Assembly (NCBI RefSeq): GCF_000147715.2
Contig: NC_017934.1
Coordinates: forward strand, 2,604,001-2,668,000
Direction: 5' to 3'
Source of the DNA: Mesotoga prima MesG1.Ag.4.2
GTDB taxonomy: Bacteria > Thermotogota > Thermotogae > Petrotogales > Kosmotogaceae
Length of the DNA: 64,000 nt
Below the pieces are notes generated by a model. It was not told where the DNA came from. It did no database searches and saw only the letters and a program-made list of their open reading frames with translations. Below, one piece after another: positions 1,580 through 40,675 of this stretch (position 1 is the stretch's first letter; each line of letters starts with the position of its first letter). Position numbers and translations under genes: made by a program.

Positions 1580-2848
1580 CTAGTCATTGAGATTGGTTAA
1601 TGACAAGAACCCTTCCCGAAACACACTGAATTCACGGTCTTCAAGACTTTCTAGATCCGAGTTTTTCACGAGAAATTCAAGGAAGTTCAGTATGCTTTCA
1701 CAGGAAATATCGTTGTAGTTTCTTCCTTCAACTCCAACGTTACGACTTGAGAGAATCTCCTTTGTAAAGCTGTAGAGGGAATAAAGATCAAGCCTCTCCA
1801 GTTCAAGATAACGCGCAAGGTCTTCTAGCAGTCGTACCCATGTTTCAACAGGATTGAAGATACCAAAGTGATCCTGAAGAACCGGCATGAGCTGGCCGTA
1901 ATAGAAATGTTGAGTAGATTCGCTCTGCCACGGTTCAACTCCGAAGATCGCCCTGGCCTCCTCTTTCTTCTTCTTAGGAAGAGAAAACAGCGCACGCGCA
2001 ATTGCGTCATGCTTGGCGAAGACGAAGTACTCCTCGCCGTTCAAATATCCCAGCTCATCTAGACAATCAAGATATCCTTCTCTCATGAAGTTTCTTGCGA
2101 TATCAGGGTCGAAATCGAGAACGTCTCCATAGAACTCGCGTGGCTTGATAACCAGATACTTTACTTCCTCCAATCTCTTAAGCGAAGTGAGGGTAAGCAC
2201 ATCCCTTATTCTCTTTGGACCAAGATCCACAATGATAATCTCTTTGAAGCCTCTGCTAAGAGCCATGTTTACAGGGATATTCCTGTATATTCCTCCGTCG
2301 ATGAATTTCTCTGAACCAATTTCTTCTCTCTTGAAGACCGGATGATTTGCGCTGGCAAGTATATAATCTTCTAACTTTCCTTCTGGAATATCGTCTAGGA
2401 ATAGCTCCTTGGGTTGCATATTGCTAAGAGAATAGGTGACGATTCCAACATCGATTTTCGCCTTTCGTACTAATTCTTCTTTAAGAAGTCGACCAAAGTT
2501 CTCTCTCAGAGGTGCAGGATCGAAACCACGGCTCTTCAAGGCAGCGAGGGCTTTTTCGATTAGGTTTCCGTCGGGGCCGTCTTTCACAACTTTGTCAAAA
2601 TCGATTTTCAGCCACAGTTGCCTTGCATCTTCGAAATTGTCCATGGCAATAGCCATGGAATTTATCGCGCCAACGGAGGTTCCGTAAACTCCCCCAATTT
2701 CGATCCCACAGTCTTTCAAGGCCTTCCATACTCCGATCTGATAAGCGCCACGCGCTCCTCCCCCCGAAAGAACGAGCCCTATCTTTTCTTCGAACTTAAC
2801 CCTTTTGCTCATCGGTATTAGCAAGTCCGACAGATTCAACTTTGCCAT
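1580..2848 (-). CDS. Patatin-like phospholipase / RssA-type esterase
   Basis: A serine lipase of the patatin family that hydrolyses acyl esters with a Ser-Asp dyad. Visible motifs in the 422-residue product are the oxyanion-hole GGGARGAY (about 29-36), the nucleophile elbow GTSVG with Ser58, and the dyad Asp in FIDGG near residue 187. The remaining ~220 C-terminal residues are not recognised. The ATG at 2848 is chosen because GAGGTG sits 6 bases before it. An upstream GTG at 2857 lies inside that ribosome site. There is no signal peptide, so it probably acts in the cytoplasm or at the inner face of the membrane. It is a single gene, convergent with rubrerythrin. Confidence 0.88.
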   Translation of the reverse strand: MAKLNLSDLLIPMSKRVKFEEKIGLVLSGGGARGAYQIGVWKALKDCGIEIGGVYGTSVGAINSMAIAMDNFEDARQLWLKIDFDKVVKDGPDGNLIEKALAALKSRGFDPAPLRENFGRLLKEELVRKAKIDVGIVTYSLSNMQPKELFLDDIPEGKLEDYILASANHPVFKREEIGSEKFIDGGIYRNIPVNMALSRGFKEIIIVDLGPKRIRDVLTLTSLKRLEEVKYLVIKPREFYGDVLDFDPDIARNFMREGYLDCLDELGYLNGEEYFVFAKHDAIARALFSLPKKKKEEARAIFGVEPWQSESTQHFYYGQLMPVLQDHFGIFNPVETWVRLLEDLARYLELERLDLYSLYSFTKEILSSRNVGVEGRNYNDISCESILNFLEFLVKNSDLESLEDREFSVFREGFLSLTNLND

Positions 2849-2948
2849 TTTAGTCACCTCACTGCAATTCTATATTAGACCAAACGGTAATTCCAGAGAT
2901 TGTCTCCCTTAAACACACTTCGGATATAATGCCTAAGGGAGGTGTTCA

Positions 2949-4307
2949 TGAATCTTTGAGAAACGGCTTTGCCAATATGGTGGCCAAACAGGAAGAGGTT
3001 GTTGCATAAGCAAGATACCGGGCCTGTCATGTAGAATTCGCTTCGGAGAAACTGTCGATCCTGCCTCTTATGGCATCACGAACCTCAGCAATCCACTGAA
3101 AGTGAATGAGGACACTTTCTTCCAGATTACCTCTATAACTAAGAGGTTCGGCGTTCTTGCAGTAATTAGATTGGTAGACTGCCGCAGACTTGATCTTGAC
3201 AGACCTTTACGCGATTATTAACCCAACTTCAAGCTCTCGGACGGAGAGGCCGAAAAGAGTTTGACAATGAGGCATCTTCTTACACAATCATCGGGGGAAG
3301 GGAGATTACTTCAAGGATTTCCGTTTTGGCAAAAATGTTATGGGAAACATGGTTAACAGCATATTGGCACTTCCACAGATCAATCCCCCCGGAAATGATT
3401 CTTTCCTACTGCAATTCCGGTTTCTATGTCGCAGGCAGGGTCATCGAAGTGGTTACCGGAAAACCCTTCGAATAAGCCATCAATGAATTGGTTTCAAAAC
3501 CTCTCGATCTCGATAAGATCCGTTTCTCTCCCGAATAGGTCATTACCGAACGGTTTGCCGTCGGCCATCATGTCAAGAAGGAGAAGATATTTGTTGCACA
3601 ACCTTGGCATATTGACAGAGCTTTGCATCCGGCAGGTGGAATCGTTACCAACGCCGAGAATTTGCTTAAGTATTCTGCATTTTACTTTGCTGAATCGTCC
3701 CCCAAAAGACTGGAATCATAAGTGAAGACTCATTTGAGGCCCTGACCACGGGAAGAATCGACGCTTCTCCGGCCTCCAGAGTTGCTCTAGGATGGTTCGT
3801 TGAGGAGATTGAAGGCGTCAAAGTCCTGCAGCATAGATGCCGGGCCAACGGTCAGATTTCCTTGCTGATAATACTTCTCGATCTAAACCTTTCGGCGGCT
3901 ATCCTTACCAATAGCAATGAAGGCAGCAAACCAACTTCTATCTTCACCAGAATGGTGATCGAAAAACTTCTGGGAATGAGCCCAATCATTTTGGCCCCAG
4001 CCAGCGATGCACTTGAGAACAGAAAGGATCGTTGGGAAGTATTTGGGAAAAGTCCGACCTGGATATCTTCAAAAAAGACTGCAAGCCGTTCATAAGAAAG
4101 ATACCTTGCGGAGGATTCCCAGAAGAAGACTTGGAACCGGCCCCACCATTTCTTCCTCAAGAGATGTCAATATCCGAGGAAGGATTCCTGATCAGCCAGA
4201 GCGAACCTGATCCGTCAAGCGCGGGAGAGTTCATGCCCGATCGTACGGGTGAAGTTGCAGAGCTTAGAATACGGCTTCGCACGTACAAAAAGGCAATGCG
4301 TCAATAA
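2949..4307 (+). pseudogene. Decayed class C beta-lactamase-family serine hydrolase
   Basis: Frame-by-frame reading recovers pieces of a serine beta-lactamase/penicillin-binding-type hydrolase interrupted by stops and frameshifts. One piece at about 3040-3360 includes VDPASYGITNLSNPLKVNED and SITKRF, which keeps the catalytic SxxK, then MRHLLTQSSG. Another at about 3390-3720 includes YCNSGFYVAGRVIEVVTGKP, which keeps a YxN-like site. A tail ends in RTGEVAELRIRLRTYKK at 4307. In-frame stops occur near 3219, 3354, 3534 and 3720. The gene once encoded roughly 430-450 residues. No intact reading frame remains. Confidence 0.8.
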
Positions 4308-7997: not shown

Positions 7998-8275
7998 TGG
8001 AAATAATCGCCTACATAATTCTGATCCCTGGGCTTTTCTTCGTTGTTGCCGGTACTCTCAGGGCGGTTTTTGCACACACGATAATTGGTACACTTCATTT
8101 CCTAACCATAGCCGATACGGTTGGCCTGATATTCCTAGTGATCTCGGCGTTTTTCTTCGGTCTCCTGACGATAATCGAAATGCTCGCGTTCATAGTTGCT
8201 TTAATGGTTACGGGACCTCTCGTGACACACGTCATTGCAAGAGCTTTCATAAACTCAGGGGGAAGAGAGAAATGA
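7994..8275 (+). CDS. mrpG: Mrp/Mnh antiporter subunit G
   Basis: A 93-residue three-helix membrane subunit matching MrpG/MbhC, with the TLHFLTIADTVGL region and the C-terminal GPLVTHVIARA. It overlaps mrpF by ATGA, and its stop overlaps the next start in the same way. It is part of the Mrp antiporter complex. Confidence 0.87.
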   Translation: MMEIIAYIILIPGLFFVVAGTLRAVFAHTIIGTLHFLTIADTVGLIFLVISAFFFGLLTIIEMLAFIVALMVTGPLVTHVIARAFINSGGREK

Positions 8276-8961
8276 GCTTTGTCATAGTCGCAATCAGCTC
8301 TTTATATATTGTCAGTGCGATAATAGTCCTTTCATCGAAAACCAATTTCCAAAGCGTAATCTGGTTTGGGATTGTCGGTTCTCTGTCAGCCATAATAATG
8401 ATGATAATTGGAGCACCGGATGTTGCCATGACTCAATTTTCGGTCGGGGTAGCCCTTGTTCTGATCGTTTACATAATGGCGCTCAAGAAGCAGCGCCGTG
8501 TTCGTCTCGGCATTGTCGAGGTACCGTCGATGATTGAAGAGACACCCTCTGGATTCAGGGGTCTGGAGTGGGAGATAATCCAGCTTGTCGATGAGAAAGA
8601 GGGTTATCATCTCGAACCTGTGAAGTTTTCCAGCAAGGAAGAGGCATTGGTAGCGATAGAAAACCATGATATAGATTTGATTTGCGGAGCGCTTACAGAA
8701 GACGATGTTACCGGCAGGACGAAGGGCATTCCCTATTTGGAAACTTCGATCTTCCTGTGCAATGGAGAGGAAATCGATTTTGTGAGACTGAAGCACTTGA
8801 GCAGAAACTCCCTTTCTCCAACGCCTGAGTTTCTGAGAAAGAGCAGCTATGTCTTTGTCGTTTCGACGAATTCACCTGATCTCGAAAAGGATATCCTTGA
8901 AGGACTGGAGTTCATAAGATCTTCGGGAAACATTGAGGAGATTGTGGGGCGGTATCTGTGA
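8272..8961 (+). CDS. MbhD-like (DUF4040) subunit fused to a small family-3 solute-binding-like domain
   Basis: The 229-residue product has two parts. Residues 1-72 form three membrane helices with IIGAPDVAMTQFSVGVAL, the hallmark of MbhD and of the C-terminal part of MrpA. Residues about 80-229 resemble a shortened extracellular solute-binding protein family 3: EWEIIQLVDEKEGY, then IDLICGALTEDDVTGRTKGI, and a terminal helix like LEGLEFIRSSGNIEEIVGRYL. Most of the second lobe is missing. The start overlaps mrpG by ATGA; longer upstream extensions in this frame run antiparallel to real genes and are rejected. The fusion suggests a ligand-sensing or regulatory domain on the antiporter, which is inference. 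Confidence 0.75.
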   Translation: MSFVIVAISSLYIVSAIIVLSSKTNFQSVIWFGIVGSLSAIIMMIIGAPDVAMTQFSVGVALVLIVYIMALKKQRRVRLGIVEVPSMIEETPSGFRGLEWEIIQLVDEKEGYHLEPVKFSSKEEALVAIENHDIDLICGALTEDDVTGRTKGIPYLETSIFLCNGEEIDFVRLKHLSRNSLSPTPEFLRKSSYVFVVSTNSPDLEKDILEGLEFIRSSGNIEEIVGRYL

Positions 8962-13909: not shown

Positions 13910-16411
13910 TTGAGTAAGAGACTTACCGTGATCCTTCTCGCATCGATGATTGTTCTCTGTGGCGGTGTTTTTGCAACCGAGAAGGGACCAATCTCCGACG
14001 TCATCTACTTCAACGTTAAGATGTCTCAAGAACTCGGTCTCAGAGACGTTGCCGAAGGACTCACCGACATTTTCATGGAAGGCGTCTCCGGTCCTACGTT
14101 AATGGGGATGGATAAGGCAACACGAGACAAAATGGATATCTACTCTGTTCCAGCGCTAACCTATGCTCTTTTCGTAAACCCATATCCGAACGAAGCTCCT
14201 TACTTCGCAAATGTAGACGGAAAGGACTTCTTCAACGTAATGGCGATAAACGAATTCAGGTATGCTCTCAACGACTTGATCAACAGGCAGTACATAGTTG
14301 ACGAGATACTTGGAGGCGCTGGAGGACCGATGTTGTCTATGGCAACCCCCGGTCAACCCGGTACCTACAGATACGGTCTGGTCGCAAACAAACTTGGGTT
14401 AAGCTTTGAAGGCAACGAGACAAGAGCTCTCGAAGCTATGAAGAAAGCTCTTGAGGATGCCGCAAAGATTCCTGAGAATCAGGGTAGACTGGTAAACAGT
14501 AACGGCAAATGGTATTTCGATAATGAGCCATTGACGGTTAAATTCGTTATTAGGGCTGATGACCCCAACGTTAGAGTCAAGATGGCCGAATACGTCTCCC
14601 TTCAACTTGAAAAGGCCGGGGTAACAGTGGACAGACTGGTCTGGGAAAGATCAAAAGCTAGCAACACAGCTTATGGTAGCGATCCTGCAGACCTGATCTG
14701 GAACCTCTACACCGAAGCATGGAGCGCAGGCGCCACAAGAGCCTTCTGGGAACACATAGTACGCCAGATGTATGCTTCCGGTGGATCCTACATGCCCGGC
14801 CGTGGGACAGAAGGGTTCTGGAATTTCAGAAACGAAAAGCTGGACGATCTCATAGATAGGGCCTACACAGGAAACTTCTTAACTGAAGAGGAGTACTGGG
14901 ACCTTTCTCTTACGGCTCTGGAGATGGGACTTAAAGACGCAGTTAGAATTTATGTCTGCTATCAGGACGGCTTCTATACGGCCAATTCGGCGAGGCTTCT
15001 CGACAGATTCGCATACGGACTCGGAGACGGAGTTAATGACTGGTCACTCAAAACGGCCGTCACCGATGACAAGGTGCTTTTTGTCACACAGTACTCATCC
15101 GTTGGAGCTCTCTTCATGTCCAACTGGGATCCTGTAGGACCTGACGGAATCTCAGACACGTACAGTGCAAATGTCGTAACGATTCTCTCTGATCCCAGCT
15201 CTTTTGAGAGCCCGGCGTCTGCTATAAATACCCCTTACAGAGTTAACTGGACACATGACGACATAGTCACGAAGGTCGAGCGAAACTCGGAAGGTGACGT
15301 CGTAGGTACAATAGACGTTCCCGAAAATGCGATAAGATTCGACAGCAAGACCAAGCAGTGGAAGGAAGTCGGCCCGGGCGTCAAGTCAATGTCGATGGGA
15401 ACATATACCCTCCTCGGAGGCAACATGCACCAGGGCCAGCCCATAACAGTCAACGACTATCTCTACGCCTTCGCATTCATTGATGAATGGATATCGAGAG
15501 ACGGGGAGAATGACAAGTACTACGAAGCTTCGTACGAGAATTACATGAGAAGCGGACAAGACACGATAAAGGGATATATTGTAAACGATGACGGGACAAT
15601 CACTACCTACTTCGATTACAACTTCCCTGCAAGCGTCGACAGAACCGCACAGTGGGGAGCACCTTTCCTTGGAGTCCACAGACAGCCATTTGTAATAGTC
15701 TCCTGGGAAATATACGAGGCCCTCGCGGAAATCGTTGCCAACGGCAGCCAATCTGGAACGGTCTATGCCTTCAGGAACGATCCCGCTGTCACTCAGATCG
15801 ATGTCCTTGTACCGAACCACGTGAAAGACATAAAAGCGAAACTCGTCGAGCTAATAGAAAAGGGACATGTTCCTAACTCTCTTAAGGGCCTGATAACTGT
15901 CGAAGAGGCTCAGTCAAGATACCAGGCCGCAATCGACTTCATAGACAAGTATGGACATGCGTATATAAGCAATGGACCATACTACCTTTCAAAATACGAC
16001 CCAACTGCGAACTATGCGGAATGCAGGGCCTTTAGAGATCCTTCCTATCCATATGAACCGTACTACTGGAAGGAAATGTTGAAAACCGTAAGGCTTTCAA
16101 TCGACTCTATAGACGTACCGGCCATAATCATGAAGGGAATGGATACGACTGTCAAGGTAGTAGTCGCAGAGGTTGCCTATCCATCTGAAGAGGTATCCAA
16201 GGCATCCAGGGGAAGCGTTGTCGTGACACTTATAACTCCGGAGAAAGAGATGACTTTCGACGCCGTCTTGATCGAACCGGGACTTTTCGAAGCTGTAATA
16301 AACGCTGAAGCTATCGAAGATCTCGAACCTGGCTCATACAACGTTCTGGCAATCGCTTCACTCGAAGGTGCGGTGCCGGCATCGTCCGTCACTTCCACCA
16401 TAGTTTACTGA
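13910..16411 (+). CDS. Oligopeptide-type ABC substrate-binding protein, apparently circularly permuted
   Basis: An exported binding protein of the SBP family 5 type, 833 residues against about 530-600 normally. A signal peptide covers residues 1-22. Residues 26-385 match the C-terminal half of ordinary family members, including VKMAEYVSLQLEKAGV. Residues 386-725 match the N-terminal half, including MHQGQPITVNDYLYAFAF (the usual DG-x-P-x-TA-x-D motif) and ISNGPYYLSKYDP (the usual GTGPY motif). The halves are therefore in swapped order. The last ~105 residues look like an Ig-like beta extension. The start is TTG at 13910 after AAAGGGGGCG. It is first in the operon and is followed by an mRNA hairpin. 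Confidence 0.85.
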   Translation: MSKRLTVILLASMIVLCGGVFATEKGPISDVIYFNVKMSQELGLRDVAEGLTDIFMEGVSGPTLMGMDKATRDKMDIYSVPALTYALFVNPYPNEAPYFANVDGKDFFNVMAINEFRYALNDLINRQYIVDEILGGAGGPMLSMATPGQPGTYRYGLVANKLGLSFEGNETRALEAMKKALEDAAKIPENQGRLVNSNGKWYFDNEPLTVKFVIRADDPNVRVKMAEYVSLQLEKAGVTVDRLVWERSKASNTAYGSDPADLIWNLYTEAWSAGATRAFWEHIVRQMYASGGSYMPGRGTEGFWNFRNEKLDDLIDRAYTGNFLTEEEYWDLSLTALEMGLKDAVRIYVCYQDGFYTANSARLLDRFAYGLGDGVNDWSLKTAVTDDKVLFVTQYSSVGALFMSNWDPVGPDGISDTYSANVVTILSDPSSFESPASAINTPYRVNWTHDDIVTKVERNSEGDVVGTIDVPENAIRFDSKTKQWKEVGPGVKSMSMGTYTLLGGNMHQGQPITVNDYLYAFAFIDEWISRDGENDKYYEASYENYMRSGQDTIKGYIVNDDGTITTYFDYNFPASVDRTAQWGAPFLGVHRQPFVIVSWEIYEALAEIVANGSQSGTVYAFRNDPAVTQIDVLVPNHVKDIKAKLVELIEKGHVPNSLKGLITVEEAQSRYQAAIDFIDKYGHAYISNGPYYLSKYDPTANYAECRAFRDPSYPYEPYYWKEMLKTVRLSIDSIDVPAIIMKGMDTTVKVVVAEVAYPSEEVSKASRGSVVVTLITPEKEMTFDAVLIEPGLFEAVINAEAIEDLEPGSYNVLAIASLEGAVPASSVTSTIVY

Positions 16412-16420
16412 TGTCTGCAG

Positions 16421-16448
16421 AGCGGTACCCGAAAGGGTGCCGCTTTCA
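16421..16448 (+). terminator. Intra-operon hairpin after the binding-protein gene
   Basis: A 10-bp stem AGCGGTACCC/GGGTGCCGCT with a GAAA tetraloop is followed by TTCATTATT. The weak T tail suggests partial termination or mRNA protection. Either would keep the binding protein more abundant than the permeases. Confidence 0.6.
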
Positions 16449-16463
16449 TTATTGAGGTGGAAT

Positions 16464-17504
16464 ATGTTCTGGAAATACATGTTGAAACGTGTCTTCTACG
16501 GCATCTTTATCTACATCATACTGATTTTCGTCTTTTCTGCGCTTTTCAACACCGTCATGGAACAGACCTTGCGAGGACAGATCGATGAGGAAATTAGAGG
16601 CGAATTGATGGCCCTAGATAACCGAAGCTCCCAACAGATTCAAGACTTCATCGAAATGAGAAGGGCAGAAAAGTATGCCCTTTACAGACTGGACAAGCCC
16701 ATCTTCGAAAGGATAGTGTGGCGAACCTGGTCAACCCTGACCTTCAACCTTGGAAAATCGAGTTCCATACGCTCTGCAGCAGGCGATCGGGATGTCTGGT
16801 CGATAGTCTCCGAGAAGATACCAAGAACCCTTGTTCTTTTCAGCACAGCGATGCTCGTCGACATCTTTATTGGAATATGGCTTGGCCTGAAGAAGGCTCA
16901 AAAGGCCGGAGGGTTACTGGACAAAAGTACTTCAGTAGGAACCATGGTGGTCTTCGGTATGCCGTCGTGGTGGTTGGGCATGATACTGATCATGTTCTTC
17001 GCATACACACTAAAAGTATTTCCTTCTGGTGGACTTCACGCTACGCCTCCTCCAGAGGGAATAGCATTCTTCTTAGATGCTCTCTATCATTTGGCGCTTC
17101 CAGTGATGACTCTTGTCGTAATTGGATTTTGGGGGCGCGCCTTCCTTACTCGAAATATCGTTCTCGGAGTTCTTCAGGACGACTATATAATGGCGGCAAG
17201 AGCAAGGGGCATTCCCGAAAGGAAGGTTCTCTACGGACACACAATGAGAACATCGGCCCCACCAATCGTCACCATGTCGCTTCTTGCACTGCTTGCCTCT
17301 GTGTCAGGAAATATTGTCTTTGAAGGTATCTTCAACTGGCCCGGAATGGGGAATCTCTTCTGGTTCGCCCTTCAGCAGAACGATGTTCCGGTCCTTATGG
17401 GAAATCTCGCGATAACCACAGGATTGTATATTTGTGGTCTTGTTCTCCTCGATCTGGTGTACGGTCTTCTTGATCCCAGGATCAAGGTTGGTGGCAGAAT
17501 ATGA
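16464..17504 (+). CDS. Peptide ABC transporter permease, DppB/OppB type
   Basis: A 346-residue inner-membrane permease with six helices. The cytoplasmic EAA loop is seen in YIMAARARGIPERKVLYGH. Between the first two helices is an unusually charged segment of about 60 residues (VMEQTLRGQIDEEIRGEL and beyond) that looks helical. The ATG at 16464 follows GAGGTGG; an earlier GTG at 16437 lies in the hairpin and is rejected. It pairs with the next gene as the membrane channel. Confidence 0.88.
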   Translation: MFWKYMLKRVFYGIFIYIILIFVFSALFNTVMEQTLRGQIDEEIRGELMALDNRSSQQIQDFIEMRRAEKYALYRLDKPIFERIVWRTWSTLTFNLGKSSSIRSAAGDRDVWSIVSEKIPRTLVLFSTAMLVDIFIGIWLGLKKAQKAGGLLDKSTSVGTMVVFGMPSWWLGMILIMFFAYTLKVFPSGGLHATPPPEGIAFFLDALYHLALPVMTLVVIGFWGRAFLTRNIVLGVLQDDYIMAARARGIPERKVLYGHTMRTSAPPIVTMSLLALLASVSGNIVFEGIFNWPGMGNLFWFALQQNDVPVLMGNLAITTGLYICGLVLLDLVYGLLDPRIKVGGRI

Positions 17505-18895
17505 GAATTGGAGATATGAAATCATCGTTCAACGAGTTCTGGCAAGAATTTAGAAGGGTCAAATCGGGGATGATAGGCCTCGTCTTTCTTGGATTGTTTC
17601 TAATGGTTTTGTTTTTTGAACCTCTGCTTCTCCCTTTTGAAGGAGCAAACCAACGGTGGAAGGACATAACCTACTGGGAGGATAATCCGGCCAGTGCCGC
17701 ACCTCAGTGGACAAACCTATTCTCCTCAAAGAAGAGCGCAGTATCCATAGCTCTTGAGTCAGCAAAAAAGGAAGAGAAAAACGCCGGCCCGATAAGAATT
17801 ATAGAGGAGACCTTCGTATATGACTTCCAGTATGATGTCGCTCCCTCCGACATAATATTCAGAGCCTCTGGTAAGGCGAATCCGACAGCAATCATATCCA
17901 TCGAAAGACCTGATGGAAGAAAGATCGACTTGCTGAGAAAGCCTTTGGAAGTTACTGAAGGAAACGACTTGAGAATCGCGATTGACAAGACCTCATTGAA
18001 TGAAGCGTACAATTTCCTCAAGGGGCTTGACGCTGCAACAGGCCTTTCGAAGCAGACCATGAAAACTACAGACATCATATTCTCCAAAGTAGAGGATTCG
18101 GTTCCATTCAAACCAGAGGCCCTGAAAGGCGAGTATAGAATAATGGTCTCGCTGATTCTCCAGAAGGAAACAGACCTGATCGATTCCACAGAAATGAAAA
18201 TTGCGGGCAGGGTGCATGGAATTCTGGGAACGGACAACTCGAAGAGAGATATCTGGAGTGGAGTAATAGCCGGAGTGAAGTGGGCTATGCTTATCGGGCT
18301 CCTTACGGCTCTTATTTCAGTATCCATTGGTGTTATCTACGGCGTAATGAGCGCTTATCTAGGAGGCTGGAAGGATTCTTTAATGCAACGTATATTCGAG
18401 ATATTCATAAGCGTTCCCATGCTTCCCGTACTCATTGTAATGAGCGCTGTCTTTAAGCCAAATATTTGGATGATTATCGCGATCATGTGCATCTTCTACT
18501 GGGTAGGACCGGTGAAGACCGTCAGGAGCATGGGACTCCAGATCAAGGAAGAGACTTATATTGAGGCCTCCAGGGCTCTTGGAGCCTCCAATACGAGAAT
18601 AATCTTCAAACATATGGTTCCTCTGCTTATCCCCTACGCCTTCGCTTCAATGGCCCTCAACGTACCGGGAGCTATCGTGGTCGAGGCAACACTCAGCCTG
18701 CTCGGGTTGGGCGACCCCAATATCGTGACGTGGGGTCAGATCCTTCAAGATGCCCATAATGGAGGCGCGATGTTGAGCGGAATGTGGTGGTGGGTAGTAC
18801 CGCCGGGACTGGCGATAGCCTTCATGGGGATGACATTCGCATTTGTCGGGTTCGCAATGGACAAGATACTTAACCCGAAACTGAAGACGAGGTAA
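17501..18895 (+). CDS. Peptide ABC transporter permease, DppC/OppC type, with large extracytoplasmic insert
   Basis: A 464-residue permease, where about 280-300 is usual. The family core is at residues 240-460, with HGILGTDNSKRD and the EAA loop EASRALGASNTRIIFKH. Between the first helix and the core lies an insert of about 200 residues. It is rich in beta-type sequence, carries no extra helix and probably folds outside the membrane. The gene overlaps the previous one by ATGA. The insert may dock the enlarged binding protein of this operon. Confidence 0.87.
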   Translation: MRIGDMKSSFNEFWQEFRRVKSGMIGLVFLGLFLMVLFFEPLLLPFEGANQRWKDITYWEDNPASAAPQWTNLFSSKKSAVSIALESAKKEEKNAGPIRIIEETFVYDFQYDVAPSDIIFRASGKANPTAIISIERPDGRKIDLLRKPLEVTEGNDLRIAIDKTSLNEAYNFLKGLDAATGLSKQTMKTTDIIFSKVEDSVPFKPEALKGEYRIMVSLILQKETDLIDSTEMKIAGRVHGILGTDNSKRDIWSGVIAGVKWAMLIGLLTALISVSIGVIYGVMSAYLGGWKDSLMQRIFEIFISVPMLPVLIVMSAVFKPNIWMIIAIMCIFYWVGPVKTVRSMGLQIKEETYIEASRALGASNTRIIFKHMVPLLIPYAFASMALNVPGAIVVEATLSLLGLGDPNIVTWGQILQDAHNGGAMLSGMWWWVVPPGLAIAFMGMTFAFVGFAMDKILNPKLKTR

Positions 18896-18900
18896 TGAAT

Positions 18901-19872
18901 ATGGATAACATATTGACTGTAGAAAACCTCAAGCTTTACTACTACACGAGCAAAGGTGTCGTGAAGGCAGTTGACGACATCTCCTTCACACTGAAGAAGG
19001 GGGAAACTCTTGGCCTCGTTGGAGAGTCTGGCTGCGGAAAGACAACTACAGGCTTCGCCCTTCTCAAGATGCCCACTCCCCCGGGTAAGATTGTCGGAGG
19101 AAGAATAGAGGTAGACGGTATCGACATTACTCCCCTGCGTGAGAATGAAATGAGAAGGAATATACGCTGGGAGAAGATTTCCATGGTATTCCAGGGCGCA
19201 ATGAATACCCTCACTCCCGTTTACACAATAGGCAAACAGATGATGGAGACTTTACAGGAACACAGAGAGATGGAGAGAGACGAGGCGAGAAAGAGAATAG
19301 AGAAGTATCTCAACCTCGTTGGACTCTCAGGCGATATAGTGAAGAGATATCCCCATGAACTCTCGGGAGGAATGAAACAGAGAATCGCCATCGCTACCGC
19401 CCTCTTTCTGGAACCCAAGGTGATAATCTGTGATGAACCCACGACCGCTCTGGATGTTATTGTACAGGCCCAGATAATAAACCTTCTAAAAGACTTAAAG
19501 GAAAAACTCGACCTTTCATTCATCTTCATAACTCACGACCTTGCAACAGAGGCAGAGGTTTCAGACAGGATAGCGGTGATGTATGCAGGAAAGATAGTGG
19601 AGATAGGAACAAATCAACAGATATACGGAGAACAGGGTCCCTGTCATCCATATACGAAAAACTTGCTCGCCGCCACTCCAAGACTACATGAAAGGGTGAG
19701 TGAACTCTCGTTCATCCCGGGTGCTCCTCCGGACTTGCTAGAGCCTCCTTCTGGCTGTAGATTCCATCCCAGATGTTCCCTGGCCATGGATAAGTGCAAA
19801 GAAGAAGAACCACCCCTAATAGAGATAGAAGATGAACACATGGTGGCCTGCTGGAGGTGTGAGAAGAGATGA
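18901..19872 (+). CDS. Peptide ABC transporter ATPase, DppD/OppD type
   Basis: A cytoplasmic ATPase that powers peptide import. It shows Walker [10 protein letters not shown], signature LSGGMKQR, Walker [12 protein letters not shown] and the H-loop THD. The C-terminal oligopeptide-transporter extension has [15 protein letters not shown]. The ATG at 18901 lies 8 bases after GAGG. An ATG at 18895 overlapping the previous stop is also possible. It works as a heterodimer with the next gene. Confidence 0.92.
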
Positions 19873-20879
19873 ACGAAAACATAATTGAAGTCAAAGACCT
19901 TCAGAAATGGTTCCCCATAAGAAGAAACATATCCCAGTTCTTCAAGGGAGAACACAATTACGTCAAGGCAGTTGACGGAGTATCCTTCTCGATAAAGAGG
20001 GGCGAGATATTCGGTCTTGTAGGAGAGTCGGGATGTGGAAAGACCACGACGGGAAAACTAATCATGAAACTCCTCGAACCTACAGGCGGGACCATGTTTC
20101 TAAACGGAAAGGATGTAACTCATATAGAGAAAGATGAACTGAAGATATACAGAAGGAATGTACAGATGATCTTTCAGGATCCATACGCTTCAATGAACCC
20201 GCGATTCAAGATAAGGGATGTCATGGAGGAGCCTTTAATAATACACAAACTCGGAGAAGACAGGGATGAGAGAATGAAGATGATCGAGAAGGCTTTAAGG
20301 GAAGTCAAGCTCAATCCTCCAGATGAATTCCTTGTGAGGTATCCCCATATGTTATCCGGGGGTCAGAGACAGAGGGCAGCTACCGCGAGGACTCTTCTTC
20401 TAAACCCCGAGCTTCTCGTTGCGGATGAACCGGTATCCATGATTGACCTTTCCACCAGGGCCGAGATACTCCACATGATGAAGGAAGTGCAGAGAGACCT
20501 TGGTCTTACCTATCTCTACATAACACACGATCTTTCCACTGCGAGATACTTCACCGACAGGATAGCCGTGATGTACCTTGGAAAGATAATAGAGATAGGA
20601 GATCCAGATGATGTCATAGACAATCCCGTTCATCCATACACAAGGGCCCTCATCGCTGCCGTATGCGAACCGGTAGCGGGAAAGGTAAACAAACCAAAGA
20701 TTGTACCGATAAAGGGAGAGATTCCCTCTGCCGCCAATATTCCAAAGGGCTGCAGATTCCATCCCAGATGTCCTTATGCAAAAGAAGAATGCTGGGAGAA
20801 GGAAGAACCTCAGCTTCAGGAGATTGAAGATGGTCACTTCCACGCCTGCAGAAGATGGAAGGAAGTAGGGGTTTCTTGA
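19869..20879 (+). CDS. Peptide ABC transporter ATPase, DppF/OppF type
   Basis: A 336-residue ATPase overlapping its partner by ATGA. It has Walker [10 protein letters not shown], signature LSGGQRQR and the C-terminal [14 protein letters not shown]. The Walker B Asp-Glu is kept, in LLVADEPVSMID. It ends the five-gene operon. A repeat mosaic and then a group II intron follow. Confidence 0.92.
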   Translation: MNENIIEVKDLQKWFPIRRNISQFFKGEHNYVKAVDGVSFSIKRGEIFGLVGESGCGKTTTGKLIMKLLEPTGGTMFLNGKDVTHIEKDELKIYRRNVQMIFQDPYASMNPRFKIRDVMEEPLIIHKLGEDRDERMKMIEKALREVKLNPPDEFLVRYPHMLSGGQRQRAATARTLLLNPELLVADEPVSMIDLSTRAEILHMMKEVQRDLGLTYLYITHDLSTARYFTDRIAVMYLGKIIEIGDPDDVIDNPVHPYTRALIAAVCEPVAGKVNKPKIVPIKGEIPSAANIPKGCRFHPRCPYAKEECWEKEEPQLQEIEDGHFHACRRWKEVGVS

Positions 20880-21139: not shown

Positions 21140-23075
21140 GTGCGCCCGGCATGATACACAACTATAGGGTGAAAGACCCGAATGCGGGGAGTCAAAGAAG
21201 CATTAGCCAGAGGCAAGGGTGTCACTGGTAACGGTGAATCTGAAGGAAGCCCGAGGCAAAGTCCGGAACTGAACGAAAGTGAACCAGGGATGGCCGTTAC
21301 AGTAGGGTAACCCTGCCAGATAAGGGAAAGCCCTGACTCCAGCTGTAAAGGTTTGGATGGCAGGATTCGGATGAAAGTGGTGTATCTTACCCGGGGAAGT
21401 CCTCATGAGTCCGAAAGGGGTAACCGTTAGCAAGGAGGTGATCCAAGTTAACGGAAAGCTCAGGAGGATGGCAGATGAACCCGTAGTAGTGAAGAACCTC
21501 TCCGAAAGGGGAAGGGACCTTGGCTAAAAGCCAAGGGGGTGATGGGGAAGTCGAAAGGCTCCATCACTTGCGAAGGGGGGAAGGATCGAAGAAATGTGAT
21601 CGGAAGACAGTGAAGAGATTCAGGTTAGACAGTTAAAGACAAGGTACATATTCCCGAAAGGGTAGAGAAGCCAGTCATTAGTTGTCGCAATAACATCTGA
21701 GACTACAACCGTTGGAAGAGAGCATACAGGAGAAAGAGATGAAGTATTACAGTCTAATCGACAAAGTCTATTTGGAGAAGAACCTTTTAGAAGCCTATGG
21801 CAGGGTAAAATCCAACAGAGGAGCCCCTGGGATAGACGGAGTAAGCGTAGAAACATTTGGAGAGAAACTTCTCGAAGAAATCGAGAGACTATCCGGAGAA
21901 ATCAAGAGAGGCGAATACAAACCCATGTCACTCAGGGGGGTAGAGATCCCGAAAGCCGACGGTAAAACGAGGCAATTGAGAATACCTGCCGTAAGGGACA
22001 GGGTTGTACAGCAATCTCTTAAGGAGGTACTCGAACCGATATTCGAGGAAGGATTCCATCCCTCCAGTTACGGTTACAGAAAGGGAAGAAATGCCTGGCA
22101 GGCAGTGGAGAAGGCGAAAGCCTTTGCATCCAAATACGGACTGTGTAATGTAGTGGAACTTGACCTCAGTGAATGTTTCGACACTCTGGATCATGAGAAG
22201 ATAATAGACTCCGTAGCCGAGAGAGTGAGTGATGGAAAGATACTCAAACTCATACGGGCAATACTGAAGAGCGGAGTAATGGAAGATGGAGTCTGGAAGG
22301 AAACAGAGACTGGCAGTCCACAGGGAGGAGTAATAAGCCCGCTGCTGGCTAACATCTATCTGAACGAATTCGATCAGAAGATGAAAGCCAGAGGAATAAG
22401 GATAGTCAGATACGCAGACGACATACTGATCTTCTCGAAAACCCAGGAAGAAGCCCGAGAGTTTCTGGCAATCGCGATAAACATACTGGAGATTGACATG
22501 AAGCTCAAAGTCAACAGGAACAAGACGAGAATCACAACACTTGAAGATGGATTTCACTTTCTTGGCTTTGAAATAAAAGGCGAGAGAGTGGGGATAGAGA
22601 AATCCAGATTGAAGAGATTCAAGGAAAAGGTCAGGAAACTTACAAGAAGGAATCAGAGCAGGCCGGTAAAGGAGATAGTGAAACAGCTCAATCCACTGTT
22701 GAGGGGATTCGCCAGCTATTTCAGGATAGTGGATTTCCAATCCATCTTGAGGGGACTTCTGAGCTGGATAAGGAGAAGGCTAAGAGCCATCATACTACAC
22801 CAGTGGAAGACAACTAAGAAACTGAACAGAGTTCTCAGAAGGAACGGATGGAAAGAGAAAGTCAACATGAGAATGAACAAATGGCGATCTTCTCACTCAA
22901 AAGCAGCCAATTACGCCATCCCCAACAGGTTCTTTGAAGAGATGAACCTAGTCGATATGACAAAATACCATCATCCCCTGTCGAAATTTCCGATACTTGA
23001 TCCATGAGCCGTGTACGCGGCCCGTACGCACGGTTCTGTGAGAGGACGAGGGGCTCCGCCCCTCTCCTACTCGAT
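21140..23075 (+). mobile_element. Group IIC intron
   Basis: The 5' end GTGCGCCCGGCATG and the segments AACTATAGGGTGAAAGACCC, GCAAGGGTGTC, AATCTGAAGGAAGC and TTACCCGGGGAAGTC resemble the known Oceanobacillus iheyensis group IIC intron. The domain V hairpin is at 23006-23038. Domain VI follows, and the 3' end is CTACTCGAT at 23075. The 1936-nt element carries one maturase gene without an endonuclease domain, as is normal for the class. It sits 3 bases after a palindromic hairpin, the kind of target class C introns use. Confidence 0.88.
21739..23007 (+). CDS. Group II intron reverse transcriptase/maturase
   Basis: A 422-residue protein that helps the intron splice and copies it into new sites. 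It has RT blocks with SSYGYRKGRNAWQAV, TETGSPQGGVISPLLANIYL and the catalytic YADD. A maturase X domain follows, with NPLLRGFASYFR and RLRAIILHQWK. No HNH endonuclease is present, which fits a class C element. The ATG at 21739 follows AGGAG; a TTG at 21712 is an alternative. The stop codon overlaps domain V. The frame is intact, so the intron may be active. Confidence 0.93.
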   Translation: MKYYSLIDKVYLEKNLLEAYGRVKSNRGAPGIDGVSVETFGEKLLEEIERLSGEIKRGEYKPMSLRGVEIPKADGKTRQLRIPAVRDRVVQQSLKEVLEPIFEEGFHPSSYGYRKGRNAWQAVEKAKAFASKYGLCNVVELDLSECFDTLDHEKIIDSVAERVSDGKILKLIRAILKSGVMEDGVWKETETGSPQGGVISPLLANIYLNEFDQKMKARGIRIVRYADDILIFSKTQEEAREFLAIAINILEIDMKLKVNRNKTRITTLEDGFHFLGFEIKGERVGIEKSRLKRFKEKVRKLTRRNQSRPVKEIVKQLNPLLRGFASYFRIVDFQSILRGLLSWIRRRLRAIILHQWKTTKKLNRVLRRNGWKEKVNMRMNKWRSSHSKAANYAIPNRFFEEMNLVDMTKYHHPLSKFPILDP

Positions 23076-35911: not shown

Positions 35912-37138
35912 TCAAGCAGTAGACCGGCAGGTAGCTACTGAAGATACTTTCAGCGAGTATTCAGGCTTCTGTTTTCCCTCCTTTTTAGAAGGAGTATAAT
36001 CAGAAAGAGGATTCCTCTTGAAGAATTTCTCTTCTGAGTAGGGAGTCAAATCCCTAAGCATGGCGAAGGCGATTTTGAGGATGGTGTTCGCCAATGCACG
36101 GAGGGCATGAGCAGAGCTCTTGCCCTCGCTCTTTTTGTTGTCGTAGAATCTTTTCATCCATTTAGAGCTATTTGTTGCAGCAAGACTGGCTATATGAAGA
36201 GTCCCTCTGAGATAGTGATTGCAGTTACTTCTCATCTTGGTGGTGTTCTTGTTACCGCTTCCATAGTAAGTCGGAGTAGTTCCCGCGTACCTTTGAAGGT
36301 CTCTGTAGGAACTGAACTTGTGTGTTAGGTAGGCAACTATGAGCTGGCTGGCGATTATTACTCCCACTCCAGGTAAGGTGAGAAGCACACTGAATTCGCT
36401 TTTCTCAATGATTTCTTTCATCTGCTTGCCTATCTCTTCCTTCATCACTTTCTTCTCCATAGCGTACCTTGAGAAAGCGACTATCAATGTCCTTATGGAA
36501 GCTGGCACATATCTTTCAAGCGCGATTTTTCTGAGCTCCTTCAGCTTGCTTTTGAGATTGCTATTTATCAGGAAACCCATCTCTTTAAGCTTCAGGAGTA
36601 TCTCTTTATCAGACATTGAGAGAAAGTCTTTTGCAGTAGGACAGATGGATATAAACGCCAGTTTTCTGGCGGAAGTGCCACTGAAAACTTCTTTCACCTC
36701 CGGCCAGTACCTTTCAAGGTATGCATCCAGCCTTCCTATATCCTGCATCATAGATACATTTATCACAGCGTTCTCTTCAACCAGTACATCCAGCTCAAAA
36801 GCTATCCCTTCCCTCTTCACTTGCAAACACCATTCGGGGTTATGCTCATAGGTCATCGCTATTACCTTCGAATCAATGAAATCGCTCTTGCCTTCTATCA
36901 CGAAGAATGACCTGGCTTCGCTCGATCTCCTGCTTGGAAGTATGTACACCTGCCTGTTGTTCCTTAGAAGATAATCGACGATCCTGTTATTGCCATCCTC
37001 AATAACATAGACCGCCTCCTTTATCTTCAGAAGCTTCGCGAAATCTTCTTCCTTGTTCCTTAAAACTAACTTCTTACCCTGGTGCAAAAGATAACAGTAA
37101 TGCTTCTTTCTTCCCCAATCAATTCCAACTATCTCCAT
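35912..37138 (-). CDS. IS110-family transposase (bridge-RNA-type recombinase)
   Basis: A 408-residue DEDD recombinase. The N-terminal RuvC-like domain starts with IVGIDWGRKKH and has GKSDFIDSKVIA. The C-terminal transposase_20 domain has LTLPGVGVIIASQL and LQRYAGTTPTYYGSG. The ATG at 37138 follows GGAGGTG. Known IS110 enzymes use a structured RNA made from the element's non-coding end to pair target and donor DNA. The reading frame is intact, so the element may be active. Confidence 0.93.
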   Translation of the reverse strand: MEIVGIDWGRKKHYCYLLHQGKKLVLRNKEEDFAKLLKIKEAVYVIEDGNNRIVDYLLRNNRQVYILPSRRSSEARSFFVIEGKSDFIDSKVIAMTYEHNPEWCLQVKREGIAFELDVLVEENAVINVSMMQDIGRLDAYLERYWPEVKEVFSGTSARKLAFISICPTAKDFLSMSDKEILLKLKEMGFLINSNLKSKLKELRKIALERYVPASIRTLIVAFSRYAMEKKVMKEEIGKQMKEIIEKSEFSVLLTLPGVGVIIASQLIVAYLTHKFSSYRDLQRYAGTTPTYYGSGNKNTTKMRSNCNHYLRGTLHIASLAATNSSKWMKRFYDNKKSEGKSSAHALRALANTILKIAFAMLRDLTPYSEEKFFKRNPLSDYTPSKKEGKQKPEYSLKVSSVATCRSTA

Positions 37139-39103: not shown

Positions 39104-40675
39104 ATGAAGCGAAGCTTCATGCTAGTTTTCTTAATGGTACTTATCGTTGCGGCAACCGGATTTGCTGCAACCCCGAAAGACACTCTTGTTATAGGTGCGA
39201 ACACGGGAATCTTCATAACAATGGATCCGGCCGTTGCCTATGAGGTCTTCCCGAACAAGATCGTAGCAGCTCTATATGCACAGTTGGTCAAGCTGGAGGC
39301 AATCGAAGGCGTTATCGTTCCAGTACCCGACATTGCTGAGAGCTGGGAAATCTCCGAGGACGGGCTCACCTATACCTTCAATATCAGGAAGGGAGTCAAG
39401 TTCTCCAACGGTGATCCTTTGACAGCTGAGGATGTTCTCTTCTCTCTGAAGAGGCCCATAGTTCTCGAGTCGGTTTCTGCATGGTTCCTGGTCGATATTT
39501 TCGGCATAAACAAGGACAATGTAGATGAGAAGATTAAGATGATCGACGATTACACCGTCTCGATAACGCTTAACGCTCCCTACGCAGAGAACATCACTCT
39601 TGGTATTCTTTCCAACATGTTCACAGGTATCGTCAACAAAGACGTAGTGCTTGAACATGAAGTCGATGGAGATCTTGGTGGGGCATGGCTTACAGACCAC
39701 TCTGCCGGCGCCGGTCCATACGTTCTCGTTCAATGGGAAAGAAACAACGTCATTCTTCTCGAAGCAAATCCGAATTACTACGGCAATCAGCCCCCTCTGA
39801 AGAGAATCATGGTAAGAGACATTCCTGAGGCATCGAACCAGAGGCTTCTACTTGAAAGAGGAGACATAGACGTTGCCTGGGATCTCACACCTCAGCTACT
39901 CGAAGAGGCCAAGAGAAATCCAGACATCGTTGAAGTGAAAGTTCCTGGACACTCTAACGAGTATCTCGCGATGAACGCTACTTGGGGACCCCTTGCAAAT
40001 CCAAAGGTTAGAGAAGCCGTAAGGTACTCAATCAACTACGAAGAGATAGTTGAAGATATTATGCTAAACAACGCTCTCCTCGTGCAGGGTTTCATAAACA
40101 AGGGCTACTTCGGATATGTTGAAGAGAATCCATTCTATCAGGATATAGAGAAGGCCAAGGCTCTCCTAGCAGAGGCCGGTTATCCTGACGGATTCGAAGT
40201 TGAACTGCTGACCAGCAACACGGATACAAGAAAGGCCGAAGCCGAAAAGATCCAGGCCGACCTGGCTCTTGCAGGGATAAAGGCAAATATCGTGATAATG
40301 CAGTCTTCTCAGATGTATGCAAAGTACAGGGCACAGGGTCATCAGATGATAATTGCCGGCTGGGGTAACGACTACCCAGACCCGGACAACCTTGCGATGG
40401 CTCACGCAAGCTACAGGGCAAAGCAGCTCGCATGGAGAAATGCATGGTTCGACGATTACGCGGCGACGCTTTGTGAATGGGGTCAGGTTGAGCCCAATCC
40501 TGACAAGCGTGAACAGATTTACAAGGATCTGACTGAATACTGGTTCCACAATGGACCCTTTGCAATGCTTTACCAGACTGTAGAGTTCTGGGGAATTCGC
40601 AAAGAAGTCAAGAACTTTGAAGAAGCCGCTTTCGGTTACGGAATGCTGTTCGACTTCACCAAGGTATCTAAGTAA
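39104..40675 (+). CDS. Dipeptide/oligopeptide ABC substrate-binding protein (SBP family 5)
   Basis: A 523-residue exported binding protein with signal peptide SFMLVFLMVLIVAATGFAA. The family order is canonical: ESWEISEDGLTYTFNIRKGV and TAEDVLFSL early, AGAGPYVLVQWE in the middle, and VREAVRYSINYEEI later. It therefore serves as an internal reference for the permuted protein at 13910. The ATG at 39104 follows AAGGAGGT. It is placed directly after the epimerase gene, so muropeptide-derived dipeptides are a plausible ligand. Confidence 0.92.
   Translation: MKRSFMLVFLMVLIVAATGFAATPKDTLVIGANTGIFITMDPAVAYEVFPNKIVAALYAQLVKLEAIEGVIVPVPDIAESWEISEDGLTYTFNIRKGVKFSNGDPLTAEDVLFSLKRPIVLESVSAWFLVDIFGINKDNVDEKIKMIDDYTVSITLNAPYAENITLGILSNMFTGIVNKDVVLEHEVDGDLGGAWLTDHSAGAGPYVLVQWERNNVILLEANPNYYGNQPPLKRIMVRDIPEASNQRLLLERGDIDVAWDLTPQLLEEAKRNPDIVEVKVPGHSNEYLAMNATWGPLANPKVREAVRYSINYEEIVEDIMLNNALLVQGFINKGYFGYVEENPFYQDIEKAKALLAEAGYPDGFEVELLTSNTDTRKAEAEKIQADLALAGIKANIVIMQSSQMYAKYRAQGHQMIIAGWGNDYPDPDNLAMAHASYRAKQLAWRNAWFDDYAATLCEWGQVEPNPDKREQIYKDLTEYWFHNGPFAMLYQTVEFWGIRKEVKNFEEAAFGYGMLFDFTKVSK

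Follow-up and report, generated by a model that had tools for sequence, protein, structure and literature searches.

The window, the whole stretch of 64,000 nucleotides of Mesotoga prima MesG1.Ag.4.2 that was analysed, encodes a family-5 binding protein at 13910..16411 (+ strand). The gene starts with TTG and has no internal stop, so the intact open reading frame of 833 amino acids lies where the preliminary description had placed it. A signal peptide is predicted for residues 1-22 (13910..13975, +), with cleavage after VFA and a model helix at residues 2-19; inspection of the signal peptide sequence revealed no good lipobox. Segment H1 (residues 27-385; 13988..15064, +) corresponds to the C-terminal half of canonical family-5 proteins, based on the match to 7fi3, the model and the canonical profile. 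It is followed by segment H2 (residues 386-725; 15065..16084, +), which corresponds to the canonical N-terminal half (7fi3 match and separate model), and by a predicted Ig-like beta-sandwich extension (residues 726-833; 16085..16408, +), recognised from the model strands and Ig-like structure matches. The boundaries drawn previously (26-385 and 386-725, with about 105 residues behind) are correct within a few residues. The 2.98 Mb Mesotoga genome has 16 Pfam SBP_bac_5 matches, 14 of them in canonical order. The only permuted ones are this protein and one paralogue that is 55% identical to it, and both start in the C-terminal half of the profile.

The binding-protein gene heads a run of five + strand genes, nearly all touching or overlapping. 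Genes for an OppB-type permease (16437..17504, +; Pfam BPD_transp_1) and an OppC-type permease (17501..18895, +; Pfam BPD_transp_1 and OppC_N) are followed by overlapping ORFs whose translations indicate ATPases of the OppD type (18895..19872, +) and OppF type (19869..20879, +). In the OppC, TM1 and TM2 are separated by a large extracytoplasmic insert (~17714-18208, ~165-180 aa), and ~280 aa lie ahead of its transmembrane core, compared to ~100 in the canonical operon of the window. OppB- and OppC-type genes adjoin most permuted genes that have enough flanking sequence, and in most of the full-length OppC neighbours the transmembrane core is preceded by ~265-330 residues. The long insert is absent from the other opp operon of the window and is present in the canonical-order Thermococcus operon at locus L103; thus, it is not specific to the permutation. 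Directly downstream of the operon, the translation of an ORF at 21712-23007 resembles a group II intron reverse transcriptase. Elsewhere in the window, the translation of an ORF at 35912-37138 resembles an IS110-type transposase.

SBP_bac_5 is the sole Pfam family matched by the protein at E up to 1 (50.8 bits; gathering cut-off 32.4), and the family HMM aligns in reversed order, with residues 77-275 corresponding to profile positions 194-350, so that the C-terminal half of the model comes first. A phmmer search of the PDB gave one strong relative, 7fi3 (whole-sequence E 3.9e-61; per-piece E 1e-28 and 1e-32). Query residues 386-719 match 7fi3 residues 3-322, residues 39-298 match 332-592, and residues 325-383 match 664-721. 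The halves are swapped, but each is colinear to 7fi3, as expected from the internal order described previously. The DYPDP-type ligand-contacting motif of the canonical binding protein encoded at 39104 is not evident in the permuted protein, and is also missing from 7fi3.

Pairwise BLASTP between the permuted protein and the 39104 protein gave no significant match, and the earlier comparison of the two therefore needed profiles as proof. We made a permuted-family profile from the window protein and 54 relatives (55 sequences) and compared it with a canonical profile built from the genome's own canonical family-5 proteins, including that encoded at 39104. Against the single canonical profile, positions 25-362 align with 240-514 (the H1 part with 242-514, E 2.4e-20). 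Against a doubled canonical profile there is one continuous alignment (25-522 with 240-663) that crosses the junction and scores 193, compared to 157 with the single profile. After rotation back to canonical order, the family aligns in one piece (12-725 with 34-509; 466 columns, E 1.2e-31). The canonical profile detects H2 weakly on its own, so the case for this segment rests on 7fi3 and on the model.

The full AlphaFold2 model, made with the 55-sequence alignment (pLDDT 91.9, pTM 0.86), has the two-lobed family-5 fold with both halves present. A sequential structure search yielded matches to halves only (TM ~0.4 to 7fi3), the expected outcome for a permuted chain. With a DALI-like aligner, model residues 22-388 superpose on 7fi3 residues 333-755 (Z 30.2, rmsd 3.0, 360 residues) and also on DppA, NikA and OppA, in each case over the C-terminal half. 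Residues 386-833 were modelled separately (pLDDT 91.6), and residues 388-726 of this model superpose on 7fi3 from residue 34 (Z 33.5, rmsd 2.6, 310 aligned residues). The prediction shows neither a standard lobe order nor two complete tandem family-5 domains; each half covers its part of the profile. Domain I of OppA includes approximately residues 169-270, which would place the cut in the lobe that holds the old termini, and not in a different lobe as the preliminary description had expected. The circular permutation relative to canonical order that had been proposed is thus borne out by the 7fi3 alignment, the doubled profile, the rotated-family profile and the predicted structure. Because the order of the halves is not the canonical N-to-C order of family 5, we file the protein as a circularly permuted variant and not as a canonical member. 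A whole-domain tandem duplication was rejected, given that profile coverage sums to about one copy. True tandems exist and look unlike this protein, for example a very long Thermococci protein of 2085 aa with the permuted module in tandem (L174:4379-10633). The module also occurs inside a 2891-aa Thermococci protein (L175:4444-13116).

The last 108 residues of the model match Ig-like and macroglobulin-type sandwiches (Z ~9-11, DALI-like aligner). The preliminary description treated this beta extension as a part of the canonical protein now found at the new C-terminus. The position is right, but an Ig-like extension was not detected in the canonical-order relatives at L103 and L105, and the modelled domain is an added Ig-like domain, not a relocated canonical piece. 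In the L105 relative (L105:5651-10012, 1454 aa), a family-5 binding protein in canonical order is joined to PEGA domains and, past a probable membrane segment, to a protein kinase domain of the Ser/Thr type. Similar proteins are encoded at L145 and by a 1454-aa ORF in genome G153. It is possible that the L105 protein is a one-protein nutrient-sensing receptor kinase in Thermococcus.

The permuted order was found in strong matches of 29 of the 103 Thermotogota genomes searched. Among 80 named loci, 76 have the H1-H2 order; of the remaining four, two are canonical, one shows yet another, third order and one is truncated at a contig end. The H1-H2 order occurs in bacteria of the Thermotogota, Atribacterota, Bacillota (Halanaerobiales), Spirochaetota (including Brachyspira), Fusobacteria and Chloroflexota, and in archaea of the Nitrososphaerota, Thermoproteota and Brockarchaeota, as well as a Baldrarchaeum and Thermococcus. 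No relatives of the permuted protein were found in the IMG/VR viral contigs searched. Three loci (L025, L026, L034) represent a second permuted Thermotogota lineage, ~25% identical, that groups with Chloroflexota and archaeal sequences. Decaying copies were also observed, one with an internal TAA (L016:1471-3987) and others as fragments, 81-86% identical, in a genome of the same genus (G003:C1:96808-97391).

Thermococci relatives of the same subfamily have the canonical order and at least four rotations, each of which goes round nearly one full circle. The rotations begin at ~334 (A, the order of the window protein), 268 (B), 623-628 (C) and 666 (D) of a canonical profile with 735 columns. Assembly error is unlikely because several rotated loci lie on long contigs (hundreds of kilobases, up to 2 Mb). 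Further rotated family-5 proteins, both halves of which are detected by the canonical profile, are encoded by archaea and Chloroflexota. Their cut points on a 510-column profile are at ~137 (L219), 221 (L259-L265, L269, L270), 264-283 (L216, L266, L267), 350-370 (L205, L209, L274) and 440 (L210, L256). This brings the family to approximately seven cut points, when B and D are counted separately and C is pooled with the 440 group. Some differently ordered proteins are close relatives once rotated: identity is 62% between L260 and L256 (454 columns), 64% between L178 (A) and L167 (C) (695 columns), and up to 66% between B and C proteins (~696 columns).

At one pair of loci from two Thermococci genomes, L101:4522-12540 (order B) and L170:31-8001 (order C), the comparison can be made at the DNA level. 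Outside of the core the loci are colinear, with 73% identity over 1.9 kb upstream and 93.7% over the promoter and signal peptide. The 5' alignment is near-identical over most signal-peptide codons and divergent thereafter, and the ribosome binding site is also nearly identical. Colinearity resumes at the stalk-anchor region and extends across the permease genes (3.4 kb, 77.6%). Between these regions the core blocks are exchanged, with 6840-7819 of L101 corresponding to 3418-4396 of L170, and 8087-8958 to 2468-3336. The core has been rotated in place, with its ends fixed. Together, this block exchange and the 62-66% identical rotated pairs show that rotation really happens in the family. A search of the termini of permuted proteins for remnants of a duplication gave no convincing case. 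Duplication followed by trimming is still the most likely route, as inferred from the existence of tandem module arrays (L174). A candidate H1-H2-H1 intermediate (L128:1409-5311) was rejected; it is an H1-H2/H1-H2 tandem, comparable to L174, that is cut by a contig end.

The direction of change in Thermococcus was considered using trees, all of which are quick searches with SH-aLRT support only and have long outgroup branches as their weak point. The window type and the Thermococcus OppA-type proteins form one clade (SH-aLRT 100 versus canonical outgroups). The Thermococcus canonical-order proteins are nested among permuted ones in the within-family tree and in all trees with a canonical outgroup, and in profile comparisons the permuted proteins of Chloroflexota lie closer to canonical family 5 than do the canonical-order proteins of Thermococcus. 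Constraining the permuted sequences to one clade lowers the log-likelihood by 18.7 and 29.7 units (AU p 0.081 and 0.035, the latter from the better alignment and the former from the other data set). We favour the view, without considering it settled, that Thermococcus OppA (7FI3 type) may have rotated back to canonical order. In its broader form, this reading holds that family-5 proteins evolve as closed circles with about seven cut points, via in-place block exchange between a fixed promoter and signal peptide and a fixed membrane anchor, and that the canonical order of Thermococcus OppA is a return from a permuted state; we consider this combination about equally likely to be right or wrong. 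The competing explanation is that Thermococcus OppA kept the canonical order, and that order A arose from it once, with no return. We place its chances somewhat short of even. A single origin survives the AU test in one data set (p 0.081), and the return step is not needed if the root is on the Thermococcus canonical branch, but the nesting recovered in every tree, the p value of 0.035 against a single permuted clade and the position of the Chloroflexota proteins are all unfavourable to it.

For the window protein itself, we are highly confident in the interpretation that it serves an Opp/Dpp-type ABC importer as the extracytoplasmic binding protein and that its polypeptide is circularly permuted. 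The chain is opened in the loop just behind the GPY strand region of a canonical family-5 protein, at approximately position 221 of the canonical profile with 510 columns. The original C- and N-termini are linked almost directly (residues 383-388), with a new signal peptide in front and the Ig-like domain added behind. We infer normal docking and delivery mainly because proteins of both orders have the same kind of transport partners. With the same fold and partners as its canonical relatives, the protein probably binds its ligand between the two lobes and docks on OppBC in the usual way. Rotation would leave function intact, and its main effect may be on where the tether (signal, stalk, anchor, extra domain) meets the core. 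Given that it heads an intact oppBCDF-like operon, the permuted protein most likely acts as an ordinary Venus-flytrap receptor.

As ligands we would guess oligopeptides first, because 7FI3, the closest relative with a solved structure, contains a pentapeptide. This specificity is uncertain since some Thermotogota family-5 proteins bind oligosaccharides, and the structure matches include such sugar-binding proteins (e.g., TM1223 with mannobiose). The protein may thus be permuted as described but take up oligosaccharides or another non-peptide solute, an appreciable if somewhat doubtful alternative. Several Thermotoga family-5 proteins are sugar-binding (structure entries TM1223 and TM1226), which speaks for it; the pentapeptide named in the title of the 7FI3 entry speaks against it, and no sugar-catabolism gene was recognised by eye within the operon.

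The permuted arrangement could in principle have arisen by domain shuffling, in which two separate binding-protein genes each contributed one half. H2 scores far below H1 against canonical profiles, as if it had another source. However, H1 and H2 share their best solved relative and match it at similar identity, the family once rotated gives an unbroken alignment to canonical family 5, and near-identical pairs differ by rotation alone, making such a fusion very improbable. Weak local profile matches can come out misordered, but an alignment artefact in which the mutually similar lobes are matched out of register is scarcely credible given the 7fi3 pieces at E 1e-28 and 1e-32, the linear results for canonical proteins with the same profiles, the high-confidence predicted structure and the block exchange between two loci at the DNA level.

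Natural circular permutations are usually single, old events, known from few protein families. We found no report of circular permutation in family 5 in open-access full texts, nor did a literature search find a detailed paper on 7FI3, and repeated rotation in this family appears to be undescribed so far. Family models detect only one half of the permuted proteins well, thus the proteins are poorly named and their order is overlooked. Here, one large and much-studied receptor family shows repeated rotation, with pairs that are 62-66% identical and two loci that are colinear except for a rotated core. This makes the mechanism of permutation, and the possible independence of the receptor from where its chain starts, directly testable in a genetically tractable archaeon.

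Among known systems, the nearest solved relative is the archaeal OppA of Thermococcus kodakarensis (7FI3), which is of similarly large size and matches both halves at 26-30% identity. Unlike the window protein, it has the halves in canonical order and no detected C-terminal Ig-like domain. Archaeal proteins related to 7FI3 end in a stalk and membrane anchor, and the canonical Thermococcus relative at L103 shares the long OppC TM1-TM2 insert with the window operon. Canonical members of family 5 / cluster C (DppA, OppA, NikA and the 39104 protein) resemble the window protein in the fold of the halves, the Pfam family SBP_bac_5 and the type of operon. The window protein differs from them in the swapped order of halves, in being ~300 aa longer and in the OppC insert. 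A natural circularly permuted ABC binding protein with a crystal structure is TpMglB-2 (Tp0684) of Treponema pallidum, which binds its sugar and changes shape, and for which tethering was suggested by the authors as a possible reason for the permutation (PMC4990184). We found no sequence relation between it and the window protein, for which SBP_bac_5 is the sole Pfam family and OppA the best solved relative. TpMglB-2 has the type I / cluster B sugar-binding fold and belongs to another family; it was permuted independently and shares with the window protein only the fact of being permuted.
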